Positions 53,046 to 62,683 of a DNA stretch of 64,000 nucleotides are shown here, in pieces. Position 1 is the stretch's first letter. Every line of letters begins with the position of its first letter. The notes under the pieces are model-generated. The model was not told the DNA's origin, did not search any database, and saw only the letters and a list, made by a program, of their open reading frames with translations. Made by a program: the position numbers and the translations under genes. The stretch is from Branchiostoma floridae. Taxonomy: Eukaryota; Chordata; Leptocardii; Amphioxiformes; Branchiostomatidae. The stretch covers positions 18,223,049 to 18,287,048 of the forward strand of contig NC_049986.1 in the NCBI RefSeq assembly GCF_000003815.2, in the 5' to 3' direction.

Positions 53046-56000
53046 TTAACTTTCCTGGAACGTCTTGGCAGCAGCGACCATGTTCTTGAGCTTGTCCCTG
53101 AGAACGTGCCTGGGCAGGAAGCCCAGCCCACAGTCGGGGGCCAGCACCAGTCTGCTGGGCGGCAGGAAGCGCAGGGCCTCCCGAACCCGGCCCCGGATCT
53201 CCTCCACGGTCTCCACCCTGCTGCGGGCGATGGCCACCACTCCCAGCACCACCGTGGTGCGGCGGAACTGGGACAGGAACGACAGGTCCGTATGGCAGTG
53301 GGCGTCTTCTATGGAGACTGGGAGGTCGGATACAAAAAAAAGTGGCAAACTTTAGTCATTACAAATATGGTAAACTTCAATCATTACAAAGGCGGACAAA
53401 AAGAATACCTGAAAAAGCAGGAATGACAGGTCGGTGGGGCAGTGGGCATCTTCTATGGAGACTGGGAGGGAGGATACAAACATGGCAAACTTCAATAGGA
53501 ATGTGGTAAACATCAATCATCACAAATAAGGCATCTATGGAAACCGGAGGTAGAGGACAAATATGGCAAGGTTCAATCCTCAAATAAAGCAATCATCTAC
53601 TCTCCAACTTAGTGCAAGAAGAGTTCACTTAAGCTCGTTTGCCTGGTGGTCAAAAAGAAAACCAAACAATACCGGTAGAAATCCCCATTAACGGGTTAAA
53701 GGGATGTCATAAACAACCTGAGCCTTGCCTGTCTGACAAAAAGGAAGCCCGACAAAATGTCGAATACCAGTCTGCTGCATCCAGAAACGGGAATTTTTTG
53801 TCTTCCTTAACAAATGGAAAATGAATGTGATGGTTCAACAGAAGAAAAATACATGTACTATGAAAAGAAAAATACTAAGAACCCTACGTCTGTCGAAGCC
53901 AGCACTGTCCAGTTTGTCTGCCAACCTGCCATACAGCGATCTGTCTGCCTTTAGGTAGTCTTCTTGGTCCTTTGGAAAGAAAAACATAAAGTAAGAAAGT
54001 AACCGAGTTGATACTACTTCAAATTTGGCTTTGACTGACAGCCTGATAGTGCCCCTGGGAAAGAAACTCAATGCAAAATTCACTTCACTTAGGTACAAAT
54101 GAGTACATGTACCTAGCTTCAATTGGAACAACCCTCGGATGTGGAACATGGTGAGGAGAGCCACACCTTAAGCATATGAAAGAACCCAGCACGCTTATCG
54201 AAAGAGAAGGAGCCCTTCCATGTGTGAGTGGATCAATATAGCTGTATGTCCAGTTATGCAGCTTGTACTCCTTAGTACAAACCTGGTGTGTTACACTGGT
54301 TTCCATTATGAAATACCAACAAAGAAAACTACTGGAAGCTTTATATACCTTTGCCCATCTTATAGATGTGCCTATGCTTACCAAGTAAAGTGGATATCCA
54401 CAGCAAGCATGTACAGACTTTGTCACTTCTGGGGGAAGACCCTAAAATGTGCACAAGAAAATAGCATAAGGAAAGGGAAGATCATTTTCAAACTGCATAA
54501 CTTGCATGTTAATGATGAACAGAACATTCTGGTAATTCTTGAAACTGAAAAAACAAAACGAGTTCAGAGACCTCATACCTGCATGAGACCTCATACCTGC
54601 ATAAAATATCAATTCTTTTTGTAAGTGTCTTCTTTTATCTTCCCTCGTTGATAATGCAAATGCATTGGACGTTACAAGTCAACGTGTTGCAGGCCGAACC
54701 CGCGCTGCAGGCCGAACCCGCGCTGCAGGCCGAACCCGCGCTGCAGGCCGAACCCGCGCTGCAGGCCGAACCCGCGCTGCAGGCCGAACCCGCGCTGCAG
54801 GCCGAACCCGCGCTGCAGGCCGAACCCGCGCTGCAGGCCGAACCCGTGTTGCAGATTCCTTTAGGCAATTGGATTTTACCGAGCAAACCAACCAACCCAC
54901 CCCTTTTATTTCCAACATAGAAAATGCTCTCGGTGCCTTTACATGCTTTTTGTGGTACATTTCATGATAGAAGAAACTTTTTTAATGATGAAAACTATAG
55001 ATTTTAGCCAGTTCATTTAGAAAAGAACAAAATTTCGTTTGCCTTTCAAACATATGATTTATTTTGACAACAGTCAGTCCTCTTGATTGACAACAGTCAG
55101 TTCAATGAAGCAACACTGCATAAATTATTCTAATCTTCAGAATCACAACATGAGGATGAAAAGGTACTACAGGAAACTGCACAACACCAGGAGGCCCAAA
55201 ATCAAACCTGAGCTTCAGGCATGACCACCACCACGAACCCATGTACCAAAAATCATTGCAATCTCAAGATTGATTCTGGAGATGTAGCACCGGATACGCC
55301 CCTTCCAAACACTCCCATGCTACTGAAAACTATACCTACATTTCATGCATGATACATGTAACGTTACATGTAGTAGGGTATTGATAATACTGTATTAGTG
55401 TATGTACAAATTGATTACCTCATTTTCACAGATACATTCCTTTACTAGCCCCTGAGTTACCGAACCGCACTCACCTCAAAGCACCTTGAAACATGTTCTA
55501 TCCCATACTCCTCAGCTATCTCTGGTTCCCGCATCATGACGGGCTCGTCGATCTGGATGTATTTACACCCTGCGTCCGCCAGGGCGCGCACCTCTCGGTT
55601 GATCACCAACACCAGGGCTTCGCTTAGATCGCGGCGGTCTTTGTAGAAACGGTCTGCAAAATACAACAAGTCTGACCTTTCACATGCCACTGCATGTAAC
55701 TATTAACTGAAGTAATCAGTGAAATTAATAATTTCATTGGGTTGGAAGATACGGATTCTTTGTTCACAACCATAATAAGTTATGTACAATCATTTCGTTA
55801 TCCTGTAAACTTGAAATTGTACAGTCACAAATGATTTAGAATGAGAATGCTACAGTGTTGATACATTTTCATGTATCTCCGAGGCAGCAAGGAAAGAAAG
55901 ATTGGGGAAAGGAAAAAAGGAACTGCTAAGAATGGTTAAACATAAAGAATACGATTAACACATCAGTGCAAACTCGAGGTGCCAGCTCTTATTTCTTATT

Positions 56001-58000
56001 GTTAACAATCTTAAAGTCAGCATCTGCGGTATACAAAAAGGTTGACCTTATACATACCAAAGGCGTAACCTAGACATAGCTATAAACTTTAATTGGTGTA
56101 TGATTTCATCAGATTAGAAAATCAGGGTTCTTAATTCAGGATCAAAACCGACGTTTCTGTGCTCGTCTGTCATCTTCCTCGTGGCAATAGATACTGTCCA
56201 ACATTGTCGGCTACCTAAGAATAGCGGTCCCAAACGTGAGAGAGTGTGTATGGGAATCTGATTCGGGTGGGGAAGTAAAAGGCCGTGGAAGGAGGGGGAT
56301 GGGCTACCGTCCAATACCGTCAAACAACCGACTGATCATATAGTCTCAAAAAGTCTATGGGACGCACACCTCACCTATTCCGGGGGCTACATGTTAGAAT
56401 ACATTTTCCCTACCTTACTGTGGGATGTACATCGTACATGTATGTAGATTACGTTTCATGTAAGTAGCTTACTTTTCATGTATGTAGATTACTTTTCATG
56501 TATGTAGCTTACTTTTAGTGGTCCCTATGATGGTCATGGGCCCAGGTACGGTGATCTTGACCGGGTGCTCGGTTAGCGCCTGAGACGCCTTCCACTCGTC
56601 TACAACAAACGGGCTGTCGTCCCGTGGTTTGACTTCTGACACCACGGTAGGGAAGAATCCAGTGCAAGCGCCGTTCCGATACGTCACTTTCTCCAACTCC
56701 TCAAAACTGAAGCCGTCCAACTGACGACTGGGGAAGGAAAACAATTCTTCAGTTTCGTAACTTGAAAAGAGTACAAGATGAAGTCCACTGAATAATGTAG
56801 ATCGAAGTTTAGATTGTAACAATAGAACTTTTCTTTTCAAACCTATCATAAGAAAGTTACCTCCATTTGAATCTGAATTTTAGATATGTATTATTAGTGC
56901 TGAAAAACGTTTCTTATGCGTTTTGACCAAGTACGGACGGTTATGTTAGTAGTATCAGTAGCCCAGTCAGTGACTTTCATATCTGTATACCTGTACTTAG
57001 CCCGATGGGTATGAATGTACATTTAGGCTATTCATAATATTCGCACCTCTCGAAAGATTACACTAAAAAAACTACCAATATGCCGCAGAGATGATTTTTG
57101 TGCTCATTGCCTGAAAATGCCACATTTGGTTGAAAGATCAATGATTGAGATAACCCATGTCAAGTCAAACCAACGATGACATTTTGTATCACATACCAGA
57201 AATGGTAGACATAGTTTTCTCTCCGCAGTTCCCCGTCCGTGATCACGTCGATCCCGATGTCCACCTGTTCTTGGATCACCTCCCGGATCGCACGTGTGAT
57301 CTGTTTCTCAAGCTCTGAAGAGTTGTGGTAGTAATCATGGTGTAAAGCTGTGTAGTGCTGTCATTCACATTCTAAACACTGCCTGGCTTTTGTTTGAGTT
57401 GATCAAGATCCATAATTAGCTGAACAATATAATATGTGCAGCTACTCTGTGATCCTTATAAATATATATAGAGAGAAATACACAACTGTACAAAAATACA
57501 TGACACACAGCATAATGATGTACAGAATGTACATACATGTATACATGTACCATGATTCTCGCGATTTTACGTTCTGAAGTGATTGGTCATCAGTATCGAT
57601 CCTGAAGAAGGCAACAGTGGTCGCTGAAAATTTGATCCGTGTGTATTTGTATTGGAAGAAAGTTTAGCTTTGTGCTATGATTACTTTGATTAACTTTTAC
57701 TATGATTACTTTGTACTATGGCTACTTTGTACTATGGCTACTTTGTATTATGATTATCACAGCCAATATCCTTAGAGTATCTTTTATATAAATACGTGTA
57801 GGTGTGCTAGTGATATGTTCTGTTGACATGGACAATGTGTGCCCAAATCTGAATCTACCTTCCTTGTCAGCTGCCCTTTGGAAGTCGTTGAAGTCAGCCG
57901 GAGTGTACTTGTAGCCTTTGGCCAGGTTAGCGTCTGTGAACCAGTCCGGAATCCGGAGGTAGTCCGGCTTAGGGTAGCTGCCGACCACGGTTGTCAACAT
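53046..58000 (-). CDS. Core MetE-like methyltransferase, copy A (7 exons, 355 aa)
   Basis: Exons in transcript order: 58000-57859, 57314-57197, 56727-56513, 55653-55475, 54441-54382, 53969-53888, 53317-53046; total 1,068 bases, phase-consistent. It starts MLTTVVGSYPKPDYLR and has GIDVITDGELRRENY, GPMTIIG, YIQIDEPVMMREPE, VHACCGYP, SIEDAHCHTDLS and LAPDCGLGF, the hallmarks of the C-terminal half of cobalamin-independent methionine synthase (COG0620). The four zinc ligands of MetE seem present: H229 and C231 (HAC), E269 (IED), C328 (PDC). The N-terminal MetE half is absent, so length matches archaeal/bacterial core-MetE proteins, not the plant or fungal enzyme of about 760 aa. The family moves a methyl group to a thiol such as homocysteine; donor and acceptor here are unknown. 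ATG chosen because it matches the family start; no upstream ATG is in frame nearby. Confidence 0.9.
53424..53565 (-). pseudogene. Upstream partial copies of the last exon of MetE copy A
   Basis: At 53424-53470 the minus strand repeats CTCCCTCCCAG and SIEDAHCPTDLSFL before diverging; a weaker third echo (ATCTATGGAAACCGGAGGTA) is at about 53530-53555. They lie 5' of the real exon (53317-53046), and the intervening intron words (GGCAAACTTCAAT) are also repeated with a period of about 70-140. Confidence 0.75.
54687..54850. repeat. 18-bp minisatellite, nine units
   Basis: GCAGGCCGAACCCGCGCT repeats from 54689 with starts every 18 bases to 54833. The nine copies are identical apart from the edges. 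Because 18 is a multiple of 3, open frames with ALQAEP-type repeats appear on both strands; they are not genes. It lies in the intron between the fourth and fifth exons of MetE copy A. Confidence 0.97.
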
Positions 58001-59188
58001 TTTGGGTTGAGGCAAGTTGCAGATCGGGTGCAAGTTAAGGATACCGACCTCAATAAGAAAGAAACGCCGCGGCGAGGCAGTCCAAAGTTCTGTTTATTTT
58101 ACTTTCTAGCTATGGTTGTGCTCTCTGACCTGAATGGTCAATACGAACCAGTCATCGGTCAAATTTACTTTAAAGTTAGTGCAAATTAAAGATGAGGTAC
58201 TTTGAATACGCAACTAGAGTCGTAGGCGGGTGAAAAAGGGTAACGAAAAAAGGACTGTTCTAGAAATTTACATTGTTGTCATTTTAGAATCCCCTGGCTA
58301 AGTCTGTGGGTTAGTTTTACTGAAGTGATCATATCGGAATAGGTAACGTAACATTTACTTAATTACGTTCCCTAATTACGTAAAATTTACTTATTTACGG
58401 CCCTTCTGTGACAAGTAGAAAAAAGACACAATCGCGTTTCATGTATATTTTATTACTGGAATACAAATAAAAAGTTTTAAAAACCCGTAAAAGTAATACA
58501 TGTAGTAAACTATCTAAAGGAATTCCAATTTCACATTCAATACTTTGAAAAAAAATTCAAAACTTTTGTGGCCTGGATATGGTTTCATTCAAAATAATTC
58601 AGACTTATTTCAAATATTATTGAAAAATCTCGGTGAAGTTGAATGGAATCTATTATGGAATGAATATGATTCAGCACTCGAATGAAAGTTAACCTGTGAC
58701 TGTAATCAAGATAATAAAGTTACATGTTATATCCGTACACAAAATAAACAAGCGCTTACAAACAATCTTTCGACCAGTCCTATGATCCGACGACTACGTC
58801 AGTCGACCCGAGCGAAAGTGTGACGTCAGGACCGGGTCAAGGGTACTCGGCAGTTGGTATCGGCCCCCGTCTTTGTTGAGGGATGGCCGAGTGACGTTGG
58901 TTTGCAAAAGGACGTCGACCAGAAGACGGGTCGAAAGCTTGTTGGTAAGCATTTAGTTTGCACGGTGTAGTTTTAGGGCGGAAATGGCGTGTAATAGGTC
59001 TATTTCTCGGTGCATACATTCATCACAGTAGTTCGCTTTAAACATTTAAAAAAATTCTCTTACAGTGAGGCATTTGGCACTGGTAGTTCTGATTCTGCCT
59101 CTATGTTATCATTCTGACGGAACGTTATCTATTCCATCTTTATTCCCTATCATAAAGCGATCTTAAATTATCTTCCTTTAATCTACAA
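58001..59188. other. Intergenic between MetE copies; promoter side of copy A
   Basis: AT-rich, no coding similarity found. It should hold the promoter and 5' UTR of copy A and the 3' end of copy B: a minus-strand AATAAA at 59144-59139 would end copy B's transcript. No TATA box was assigned with confidence. Confidence 0.45.
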
Positions 59189-59336
59189 GCAGATCCTATG
59201 GTAGCATAACATAGTATCAAAAGCTGGCAAAGGAGTATAGCCGGCCTAGGAGTGTTCGGTTGGCAATGAACACCCCTAGGCCGGCAACGCTCCTTTGCCA
59301 GCTTCTGATACTATCTTATGCTACCGTAGGATCTGC
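59189..59336. mobile_element. Fold-back MITE with arms of about 65 bases
   Basis: GCAGATCCTATGGTAGCATA at the left is mirrored by TATGCTACCGTAGGATCTGC at the right. The mirroring continues inward (ATAGTATC/GATACTAT, GCTGGCAAAGGAG, GGCCTAGG), leaving a loop of about 15 bases. It starts 19 bases after the stop codon of MetE copy B, so it is probably part of that 3' UTR and would make a long RNA hairpin. Confidence 0.9.
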
Positions 59337-59355
59337 TAGGAGATTATCTGCCTTA

Positions 59356-62300
59356 TCAGTTCTCCGGAAATGTTTGTGCAGCTGCGACCAAGTTCTTGAG
59401 CTTGTCCCTGAGAACGTCCCTGGGCAGGAAGCCCAGCCCACAGTCGGGGGCCAGCACCAGTCTGCTGGGCGGCAGGAAGCGCAGGGCCTCCCGAACCCGT
59501 CCGCGGATCTCCTCCACGGTCTCCACCCTGCTGCGGGCGATGGCCACCACTCCAAGCACCACCGTGGTGCGGCGGAACTGGGACAGGAACGACAGGTCGG
59601 TATGGCAGTGGGCGTCCTCTAAGGAAACTGGAGGGCAAGAGAAAGATCGGAGTTACGGCTTTGTCGAACAAGCCATTGCGGAGCCGTGTGGCGTAACGGC
59701 AGAGTATTCAGCTCAGGACCAAGTGGTCCCGAGTTCGAATCCTGTCATGTCACCGATGTGCCCCTGGGAAAGGTACTTTGGACGGCCTTCCTCACTCTAC
59801 TCAGGTGTGAAAATGTGTACCTGACTTCGGTTGGGGACGTAAAAGGCGGTGGAAGGAGCGGATTGGGCTCAGCTTCCAATACCTAGACAATGTGTGAATA
59901 ACAACTGTCTGAAATTTCTATGGAACAACCTTTACCTTTTGTTTGTCCTTTGTAATAAGGTATACCAACTTGAGTGTGGTGACACAGTGTTCTGGTCTGT
60001 CTTGAATAAAAAAGCCATATAGTTTTATCAAAGGCTTAAACAGACTTGACTACGGACCTAACATTGTAGAGGTTCCGTATGGCATAGTCTAGATCTATAC
60101 GATTATACTGTCTATTTCGTTACGGAATAAATGTTTTAAAAGTCTATCAAAATCTATTTCATTCCCATCTTGCAATGAGGCGAGGCTTTGCGAGACAAAG
60201 TTGAACCAAGGAGGTAAAAATGGCACATCTCTAAAAGTCAAACACATAGATCACGATATCGACTACATGTAAACGCCTTCATGTGAAGTTTGGATAACAA
60301 AGTTGAACTTCGGTCGAAGTCGACGTTATCTAGTTTTGTTACCAGTCGATCATACAGGGTTTAAACGCATATCTTTAAGTTAAAACATACTATTCTTCCA
60401 TATAACAGTCACTCGGAGTTCAAAACTTCAAACACATGGATCACAATGAATATCGACTACATGTATACGACTTTTTGTGACGTTTGGATAACAAGGTTGA
60501 TCGTACTTCGGTCGAATCCGGCGTTATCCAGTTTCGTTGCCAGTCGGTCGTACAGGGTCCTGTCGGCCTTCATGTAGTCGGTCTGGTCCTGAAGTAAAGA
60601 AGCAAAAGGTTTTTTTTTAGAAACTTCTGCTCAAAGATAAAATTTCAAAGTTGAAAATTAAAATCTTCTCAAAATCTGCACGTTACCGACTTGTGGAACC
60701 GGAACAAATCTAGTATTCTAGACAGTCCAATTTTGGGTGGTTATACTTGCATTGTACCTGTGTTGCATGCATGTTGATCGATGTATTGATATATTGACAC
60801 CCCTATTTCAGGGATCCTAGCAGCAGTTACTTTCTGAGCAGGCATTTAAGATACATAGTACACGTAGTTGACACGTCCACCAGTTTATAAGTCATTTTGT
60901 ACATCATCCATGATGATCCATGATCCGTGACACTTTTTCTGTCCTCGAGTGGCATCCACTGATTCCAATGACTTACTTACTAGGTATGATGGATACCCAC
61001 AGCAGGCGTGAACGGTCTTGGTGACATCCAATGGAAGACCCTGATGGCAAAGAAGAAGAGAGTAGCAAAAGTTACCGAACAAAAGCTTTTCATTTTCATT
61101 CTTTCGCATCTTTCTTCTTTGACATTGGCATTGACAGTGACATTCTACGACGTTAGAATACGTTTTTCCTATGTTTTATTTCTTTTGTTAGATCGTGTAC
61201 TGTGGCTTACTCGTACTCACGATATTGTAGATTTAGATGGCGTATTACCTCGAAACACCTTGTGACGTGTTCTATCCCATAATCTTCAGCTATTTCTGGG
61301 TTCCGCATCATGACGGGCTCGTCGATCTGGATGTACTTACACCCTGCGTCCGCCAGGGCGCGCACCTCTCGGTTGATCACCCACACCAGGGCCTCGCTCA
61401 GCTCCTTTCGGTCTTTGTAGAAACGGTCTGGAAAAAACAACAACAGAATTTTGTAAACGAAGTGACCGTTTTCTTGTGTCAGTAGATCAGAGGTTTTGCC
61501 TGGAAGACTCCCTGTATTCTTTGTAAATACATGTGTCGAGAAATTAAACTTCCTCTTGTTACAAGCAAGGAGGTTATGCCTCCTTGTTACAAGTAACCAT
61601 ACCACTTTTGACGCACACGTCAAGTATATTATTACGTATATATTTCTATTTTTCGTTTCCACTTACTAGCAGTGGACCCTATGATAGTCATGGGCCCGGG
61701 GATGGTTATCTTGACGGGGTGGTCCGTGAGGGCCTGCGCCGCCTGCCATTCCTCCAGGACGAACGGCTTGTCGTCTCGCGGGCCGACCTCCGACACCACG
61801 GCGGGGACATAGCCTGACCACGCCCCGTTCCGGAAAGTCTCCTTCACTAAGTTATCGAAGTCAAACCCGTTGAGTTGCCGGCTATATTGAAGAAAAAAAT
61901 AGTCAAGCCATTTTAAAACTTAACAACATTACAAATGTGTGTATCAAGCTGACCGAACCTCTCGGACCCTACTAGCCGCAAGAGGACAATCATGTAGCCT
62001 CCACTAGGCTCCGCGGATCGGAGGTCTAATAGTAGAAATTGGACAAATAGAGTCAATAGTACGCTATAGGGAGTCGGCCGGCCAAAGGACTTACTGTAAA
62101 TGCATTTAAGTTCGCGGGGATTTAATTTCGCGGTAGCGGGAAAACGGTTTTAATTTCGCGGTATCGCCATGCACTATAGATCTCTTACTGTTATGGAAAA
62201 ATGTTCGCGGTTTTCGCGGCGGCCGCTTAACCGCGAATATTTAAAACCACCGCGAACATGTCTGCATTTACAGTATTTCCTTACTCTCCAAGTAGAGGTT

Positions 62301-62683
62301 GGTGGGGATGTGACCTTTTCCTTATATGCCGTATTTTTCGACCAGCCCCCCCACCAACATCTGCTTGGAGAGTAGGGCCTACCGCGAACATCGTATCTTT
62401 GTCAAGTTGGCATTTATATACCTGGTCGGTTGCTGTACCACAAATCAAATCAGCTCCATCTACATCAAGGTACATAGTTCTGACTTAAACAGTTTTTTTT
62501 TTACTCAATGGTCACCACGTAACAAGGCCTGAAGGCCACTCATAGTTAAAGCGTTGAATACATACCAAAAGTAGAGGATGTAGTTTTCCCTCCTGAGTTC
62601 CCCGTCCGTGATCACGTCGATCCCGATGTCGACCTGTTCTTGGATCACCTCCCGGATCGCACGTGTGATCTGCTTCTCAAGCT
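59356..62683 (-). CDS. Core MetE-like methyltransferase, copy B (6 of 7 exons in window)
   Basis: Exons in transcript order: 62683-62566, 61881-61667, 61427-61249, 61040-60981, 60588-60507, 59627-59356. Lengths (118, 215, 179, 60, 82, 272) and phases are identical to exons 2-7 of copy A, so the two are tandem duplicates. Motifs: IGIDVITDGELRRENY, GPMTIIG, YIQIDEPVMMRNPE, VHACCGYP, SLEDAHCHTDLS, LAPDCGLGF; the zinc ligands (H, C, E, C) are kept. The first exon, with the GSYPKP start, was not found between 62684 and 64000 and probably lies beyond the edge. Exon 3 protein is only about two-thirds identical to copy A, while the last exon is about 97% identical in DNA. Confidence 0.88.
59680..59900 (+). 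mobile_element. tRNA-derived SINE
   Basis: GTGTGGCGTAACGGCAGAG (A box) and GAGTTCGAATCCTGTCATG (B box) form a convincing tRNA-like head. The body has GTGCCCCTGGGAAAGG, TGTGTACCTGACTTCGG, GGTGGAAGGAGCGG. It is the best-preserved member of the family also seen at 12345, 29680, 38833 and 48385, and it lies in the last intron of MetE copy B. Confidence 0.75.
60240..60365 (-). pseudogene. Downstream partial copy of MetE copy B exon 60588-60507 (exon end plus donor)
   Basis: The minus strand near 60355-60310 encodes LYDRLVTKLDNVDFDR before a GT, against LYDRLATKLDNAGFDR in the real exon. Flanking words (ATCACGATATCGACTACATG, GTTTGGATAACAA) are repeated as well, giving a unit of about 180 bases. 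The copy lies 3' of the exon. Confidence 0.8.
62092..62275. mobile_element. MITE, TACTGTAAATGC family, well preserved
   Basis: TACTGTAAATGC at 62092 and GCATTTACAGTA ending 62275 are exact inverses. The interior carries two mirrored blocks of CCGCGAA-type words. In an intron of MetE copy B. Confidence 0.9.
62282..62374. mobile_element. Short MITE with TACTCTCCAAG termini
   Basis: TACTCTCCAAGTAGAGGTTG and CCAACATCTGCTTGGAGAGTA are inverse with few mismatches; total 93 bases. Same termini as the element of about 1 kb that contains the assembly gap. It lies six bases from the preceding MITE. Confidence 0.85.

Follow-up and report, generated by a model that had tools for sequence, protein, structure and literature searches.

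A 64,000-nucleotide stretch of the Branchiostoma floridae genome (assembly GCF_000003815.2, NC_049986.1, positions 18,223,049 to 18,287,048; hereafter the window) carries on its minus strand two tandem, spliced genes, A and B, which encode the catalytic half of the cobalamin-independent methionine synthase MetE alone (core-MetE) and group with a clade of bacterial proteins. A zinc-dependent homocysteine chemistry is well supported for this family by the conservation of its predicted active site and by a modeled fold. Further, the bacterial gene is often found amid genes for the breakdown of taurine and aminophosphonates, which suggests that the methyl group comes from betaine-like forms of those compounds. 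The reading that we favor, with a probability of about four in ten, is that A and B represent a bacterial-type core-MetE in an animal and function as zinc homocysteine methyltransferases using N-methylated taurine or 2-aminoethylphosphonate. More tentatively, SAR11 and other, mostly marine, bacteria might possess a new core-MetE family using the betaine forms of these compounds, which has passed to the animal and could stand as a fifth family beside MesA, MesB, MesC and MesD, with MesA-C set apart by description only.

Active site and relationships of the animal proteins

Both proteins match the Pfam family PF01717 (E 1.9e-42 and 146 bits for protein A; E 1e-37 for protein B), at E-values that speak against a chance match, and start at the catalytic half (355 aa in A, compared to ~340 aa for core-MetE), with the folate-binding N-terminal half absent from the same protein. 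This confirms the first-pass annotation in its claim that only the catalytic half is encoded and rules out a full-length MetE. Inspection of the alignment identifies the four zinc ligands, which that annotation had likewise recognized, as H229, C231, E269 and C328 of protein A, and all four are present in 30/30 clade rows. The homocysteine ligands correspond to S8, E76 and D194 (Ser433, Glu484 and Asp599 of E. coli), and the two positions contacting the amino group (E76 and D194) are invariant in the same 30 rows; the roles of the zinc and homocysteine ligands follow a portion of PMC7857596. For a bacterial clade member, the predicted fold is a one-domain MetE catalytic barrel that has a full zinc site and both ligands of the homocysteine amino group but lacks the folate-binding half, in agreement with the zinc site as originally proposed. 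A grouping with UROD-like proteins lacking methyltransferase function was looked for, in the form of a UROD family match lacking the zinc site, and is not the case. Additionally, a set of residues around the active site (C232, R88, R200, K245, D270 and H272) is found in the clade only. Protein A reaches no NCBIfam family at its cut-off, PRK04326 being the top score (209 bits as against the 406 needed), and its best match among PDB sequences is the MesD structure 3rpd (E 1.3e-40). PF02574, the BHMT family, is absent among the Pfam families matched by A or B.

A scan of one genome per species, from which the best 80 of 588 relatives were taken (the bacterial list is thus incomplete), recovered 29 relatives (L010-L038) that are 40-50% identical to protein A, with the next relative at 37%. 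In a tree of 95 rows, A and B join 28 of these (L031 being omitted as an identical row) in a clade with support of 100/99, to the exclusion of 15 MesD rows, L040, L050, 44 further rows and four MetE rows. A second tree of 30 rows picked from the first (two animal, 16 clade and 12 others) recovers the clade with support of 100/100, and the approximately unbiased test rejects a topology in which the animal pair is forced to group with MesD (p-AU 5.24e-05). The phylogeny that had been proposed as a check on the first-pass annotation joins the animal pair to a bacterial clade, within which neither a placement with the bacteria standing alone (p-AU 0.47) nor one with L010 (p-AU 0.32) is rejected; these tests single out no donor lineage. 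The bacteria of the clade comprise uncultured Alphaproteobacteria, Pelagibacteraceae, Roseovarius, Kiloniellaceae, Pelagibius, Granulosicoccaceae, a gammaproteobacterium, Acidimicrobiales and a Desulfobacterales metagenome-assembled genome, groups which we take to be mostly marine. On these sequence comparisons, the animal genes appear to be core-MetE of a bacterial type, for which acquisition from bacteria would be the simplest origin. No literature linking cobalamin-independent methionine synthase with amphioxus was found. Eukaryotic homologues, which may be relatives, are reportedly described in a 2024 PNAS paper on a MetE-fusion of Phaeocystis. A MetE-type gene likewise occurs in another animal, the spider mite, whose cobalamin-independent methionine synthase is ascribed to horizontal transfer in a portion of PMC4011162 and is likened here by description only.

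With respect to mobile elements, no plasmid relative close to the clade was found among the matches listed, the best being 34% identical to A, 34% to L016 and 37% to L013. The three loci on viral-classed contigs (L090-L092) are all placed with MesD rows in the tree; in L090 and L092 the MesD-type gene shares its locus with a MesX match. L007, a core-MetE relative outside the clade, is encoded on a conjugative plasmid in a row with a citryl-CoA lyase, a CoA-transferase and a ring-cleavage dioxygenase.

Genomic neighborhoods of the bacterial genes

Eleven neighbor proteins were searched (tblastn, 1e-25) in the 29 clade loci and in 60 control loci comprising MesD, split MetE and other core-MetE. 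In the clade loci they were recovered as PhnY (14 loci), Fe-ADH (14), PhnA (13), PhnW (9), AlaDH (6) and AptA (5), and more rarely as PehA (3), a flavin adenine dinucleotide (FAD) oxidase (2), Xsc, a DMGDH-like protein and an MtmB-like protein (1 each), whereas none of the eleven was found in 60/60 control loci. At least one of PhnY, PhnA and PhnW, marking an aminoethylphosphonate-type locus, is present in 15/29. In L019 and similar loci, genes for PhnA, PhnY, a binding protein, core-MetE and Fe-ADH lie on a single strand with short gaps, and L011 shows the order PhnW, PehA, core-MetE. Single representatives of PhnY, PhnA, PhnW, AlaDH, AptA and Xsc pass their NCBIfam cut-offs.

The second context is seen in the SAR11 order, to which the L035 genome belongs, where core-MetE was detected in 35 of 197 genomes (E up to 1e-50). 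In all 20 loci fetched from these 35 (L123-L142), the genes run in the order PotD-like binding protein, ATP-binding cassette (ABC) ATPase, core-MetE, AlaDH, a small methyltransferase-like gene and Xsc. Xsc is followed by a DMGDH-like gene in 15 and by an aminotransferase in the other five; in eight loci read further out (seven of them with DMGDH) the aminotransferase comes next in every case, such that it is present in 12/12 loci read far enough. The small methyltransferase-like gene between AlaDH and Xsc is itself a constant feature (20/20), and in two of the loci an extra FAD amine-oxidase-like gene, recognized by eye, separates it from Xsc. Xsc as such is widespread in the order (159/197 genomes). 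For comparison, 20 Xsc loci were hand-picked from SAR11 genomes without a listed core-MetE match; omitting L151-L153, which lie at a contig edge (DMGDH in one, aminotransferase in all three), the remaining 17 gave no match to DMGDH, AlaDH, PotD, the ABC ATPase or that aminotransferase (1e-20). Hence, Xsc loci that contain core-MetE form a type of their own, mostly with a demethylase too, although the relatedness of SAR11 genomes means that this type may reflect a single event.

The proposed methyl donor and competing reactions

A model for such loci is provided by glycine betaine in SAR11, whose methyl groups are proposed, in the consulted part of PMC3160333, to be lost via BHMT, DMGDH and SARDH in order. 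A SAR11 locus with core-MetE in the place of BHMT, along with a DMGDH-like protein, an aminotransferase, AlaDH and Xsc, suggests the same plan for N-methylated taurine, while the PhnW/PhnY/PhnA loci suggest a parallel one for N-methylated aminoethylphosphonate. Based on the chemistry of the family, homocysteine would be bound to zinc as a thiolate and receive the methyl group to yield methionine; going by the bacterial neighborhoods, this group could come directly from N-methylated taurine or 2-aminoethylphosphonate, for example a trimethyl betaine-like form. In bacteria, the leftover methyls would then be handled by the DMGDH-like enzyme, the taurine skeleton by the aminotransferase and Xsc, and the aminoethylphosphonate skeleton by PhnW, PhnY and PhnA. 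Following a presumed entry of the bacterial gene into the animal, gain of introns and tandem duplication, the animal might recover methionine from such compounds in marine food or of its own making, this being the least supported step. The proposed likeness to BHMT lies in zinc, homocysteine and a quaternary-ammonium methyl donor, but BHMT belongs to a different protein family. As to the substrates, N-methyl-aminoethylphosphonate is described in a section of PMC10590968 as common in nature and as not processed by PhnW, and N-methyl derivatives of aminoethylphosphonate from a sea anemone are cited there; N-methyltaurine was not found in the literature on SAR11, taurine, DMGDH and Xsc.

If this proposal is correct, the animal would make methionine by a second route, B12-free and of the betaine type, that relies on the MetE rather than the BHMT fold, and would use a bacterial-type core-MetE alongside its own MTR. 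It would also name an enzyme for the as yet unassigned step that opens N-methylated taurines and aminophosphonates in marine bacteria, including SAR11, and account for some of the methyl groups of methionine in genomes that a part of PMC12478193 describes as lacking MetE and MetH. Five exon matches to the MTR activation domain PF02965 on C1 of the animal genome indicate that the B12-dependent enzyme is present, and core-MetE is therefore no replacement for it. The 18 exon matches to PF02574 (on C1, C2, C4, C7, C12, C16 and C330) probably represent BHMT-type enzymes.

Several observations weigh against this assignment of the donor, which is drawn from the bacterial neighborhoods and not from the animal. 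The contrast with the control loci is favored by neighbor queries drawn from the clade's own loci and by nine control loci having 3-kb instead of 5-kb flanks; further, the names Fe-ADH, PehA, DMGDH-like and FAD oxidase fall below NCBIfam cut-offs in the single representatives compared. Four clade loci (L012, L016, L034 and L037) have none of the eleven neighbors, and inspection by eye places a likely MetZ near the core-MetE of L013. Independent events are few, with two sublineages contributing the PhnA/PhnY loci and the SAR11 loci all lying in related genomes within a single order. Within the active site, the position of S8, the homocysteine carboxylate ligand, is alanine in 26/28 readable clade rows. 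Finally, a Phaeobacter mutant in a mes-like gene that might belong to the clade kept the shortening of lag by dimethylsulfoniopropionate (DMSP) according to a portion of PMC12366255.

Of the competing explanations, the marginally most probable, though still unlikely, is that the enzyme is a core methionine synthase which resembles MesA-C in being supplied by corrinoids, passing a methyl group from methylcobalamin or a corrinoid protein to zinc-bound homocysteine. The clade shares with MesA, MesB and MesC the core-MetE architecture and zinc chemistry, and the characterized core synthases accept methylcobalamin in vitro (both from part of PMC7857596). A methylamine-methyltransferase-like gene near L010, seen by eye and without an NCBIfam match, would also fit such a donor and counts against the betaine-like one. 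However, no corrinoid gene was recognized beside core-MetE in the 20 SAR11 or the PhnA/PhnY loci, as judged from representatives, and MesA-C, here compared by description only, come from methanogens and Wood-Ljungdahl anaerobes. It is likewise unlikely that the enzyme takes its methyl from another compound, such as S-methylmethionine, DMSP or glycine betaine, with the neighbors merely reflecting shared regulation or nutrient stress: the active site conserved in 30/30 rows and the several clade loci devoid of taurine or phosphonate neighbors would be compatible with this, but the gene is repeatedly accompanied by two distinct, chemically parallel pathways, for taurine and aminoethylphosphonate. 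Within the UROD/MetE fold, there are other members that make or break thioethers or use other acceptors, and the clade-only active-site residues, together with the loss of the Ser433 equivalent in most bacterial rows, might point to a scaffold redeployed for another thiol acceptor or for thioether making or breaking; we regard this as rather improbable given that both homocysteine amino-group ligands are invariant.

Two further alternatives are very improbable. A MesD-like enzyme (PRK09121) working with the oxygenase partner MesX would be in line with 3rpd being the closest solved structure, but the clade is separate from MesD (p-AU 5.2e-5), protein A is only 32-33% identical to four plasmid MesD rows, and MesX (DUF1852), which accompanies 13/13 MesD loci, is beside 0/49 clade loci. 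MesX is also absent from the window and the stretch past its end (L102); a search of the whole animal genome gave no match, as did its positive control. A folate-using MetE of the ordinary kind, divided into two pieces whose N-terminal part is encoded by an unlinked gene, would be in line with the top score of PRK04326, a likeness to the catalytic subunit of the haloarchaeal split MetE. Nevertheless, neither the 49 clade loci nor the window together with a further 9.9 kb (L102) yielded an N-terminal partner, which rules out an adjacent partner as in split MetE. The split MetE of L006, L060 and L068 differs in having an adjacent N-terminal-domain gene and in being without the Y234 insertion of the clade.

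Gene structure and residence in the amphioxus genome

The genes can be taken as resident in the animal, as the first-pass annotation had argued: the window lies 18.2 Mb along a 25.6 Mb contig, both genes have introns, and exons of RPL5/uL18 on the plus strand (49.6-51.9 kb) end ~1.1 kb from gene A, all of which rules out contamination. The RPL5 exons match PDB sequences with 29 best rows at 197 bits or above and the next at 150 bits; the former are presumably all from animals and the latter from a plant. When protein A was searched in six frames against the complete assembly (513.4 Mb, 431 contigs), 15 matches were obtained (E up to 10), all at the A/B locus on contig C8, two of them past the window end.

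Gene A consists of seven exons with GT-AG introns from ATG to stop. Gene B, also with GT-AG introns, shows exons 2-7 within the window (308 aa), and its protein is 84% identical to that of A; exons 2-7 of the two genes have equal lengths (118, 215, 179, 60, 82 and 272 nt) and equal phases. Thus, of the two tandem seven-exon genes originally described, the tandem arrangement, the seven exons of A and the matching exons 2-7 stand, but exon 1 of B was not found inside the window by tblastn. Two candidate copies lie past the window end (window-relative 64776-64932 and 66547-66703; L102:925-1081 and 2696-2852), each reading ATG...GAAG|GT in the correct phase, and could be alternative first exons or the remnant of a duplication. 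Both start with MPL, as in many bacterial members; exon 1 of gene A differs. Judging from the reading frames, gene A appears intact, as does gene B provided that one of the two copies serves. Taken as a whole, the earlier interpretation is partly supported.

Exons of genes A and B and partial exon copies (window positions)
Feature	Position	Strand	Basis
Gene A exon 1 (ATG start)	57859..58000	-	reading frames, splice sites
Gene A exon 2 (carries E76)	57197..57314	-	reading frames, splice sites
Gene A exon 3	56513..56727	-	reading frames, splice sites
Gene A exon 4 (carries D194)	55475..55653	-	reading frames, splice sites
Gene A exon 5 (zinc ligands H229, C231)	54382..54441	-	reading frames, splice sites
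Gene A exon 6	53888..53969	-	reading frames, splice sites
Gene A exon 7 (zinc ligands E269, C328; stop)	53046..53317	-	reading frames, splice sites
Gene B exon 2	62566..62683	-	reading frames, splice sites
Gene B exon 3	61667..61881	-	reading frames, splice sites
Gene B exon 4	61249..61427	-	reading frames, splice sites
Gene B exon 5 (zinc ligands His, Cys)	60981..61040	-	reading frames, splice sites
Gene B exon 6	60507..60588	-	reading frames, splice sites
Gene B exon 7 (zinc ligands Glu, Cys; stop)	59356..59627	-	reading frames, splice sites
Exon 7 partial copy, 44 bp, 89% identical, in intron before gene A exon 7	53418..53461	-	
Exon 6 partial copy, 52 bp, 85% identical to gene B exon 6, in intron before gene B exon 7	60309..60360	-	

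Across exons 2-7, the ratio of nonsynonymous to synonymous divergence (dN/dS, Nei-Gojobori) between A and B is 0.15, indicating that the two copies diverge under purifying selection. Their synonymous divergence is uneven, at 0.42 in exon 2, 0.34 in exon 4 and 0.19 in exon 7, 1.9 in exon 3 and saturated in exons 5 and 6, a pattern that could reflect gene conversion. In gene A, the intron separating exon 4 from exon 5 additionally contains a GC-rich tandem repeat with an 18-bp unit (54688-54854; 9.3 copies, 98% matching).
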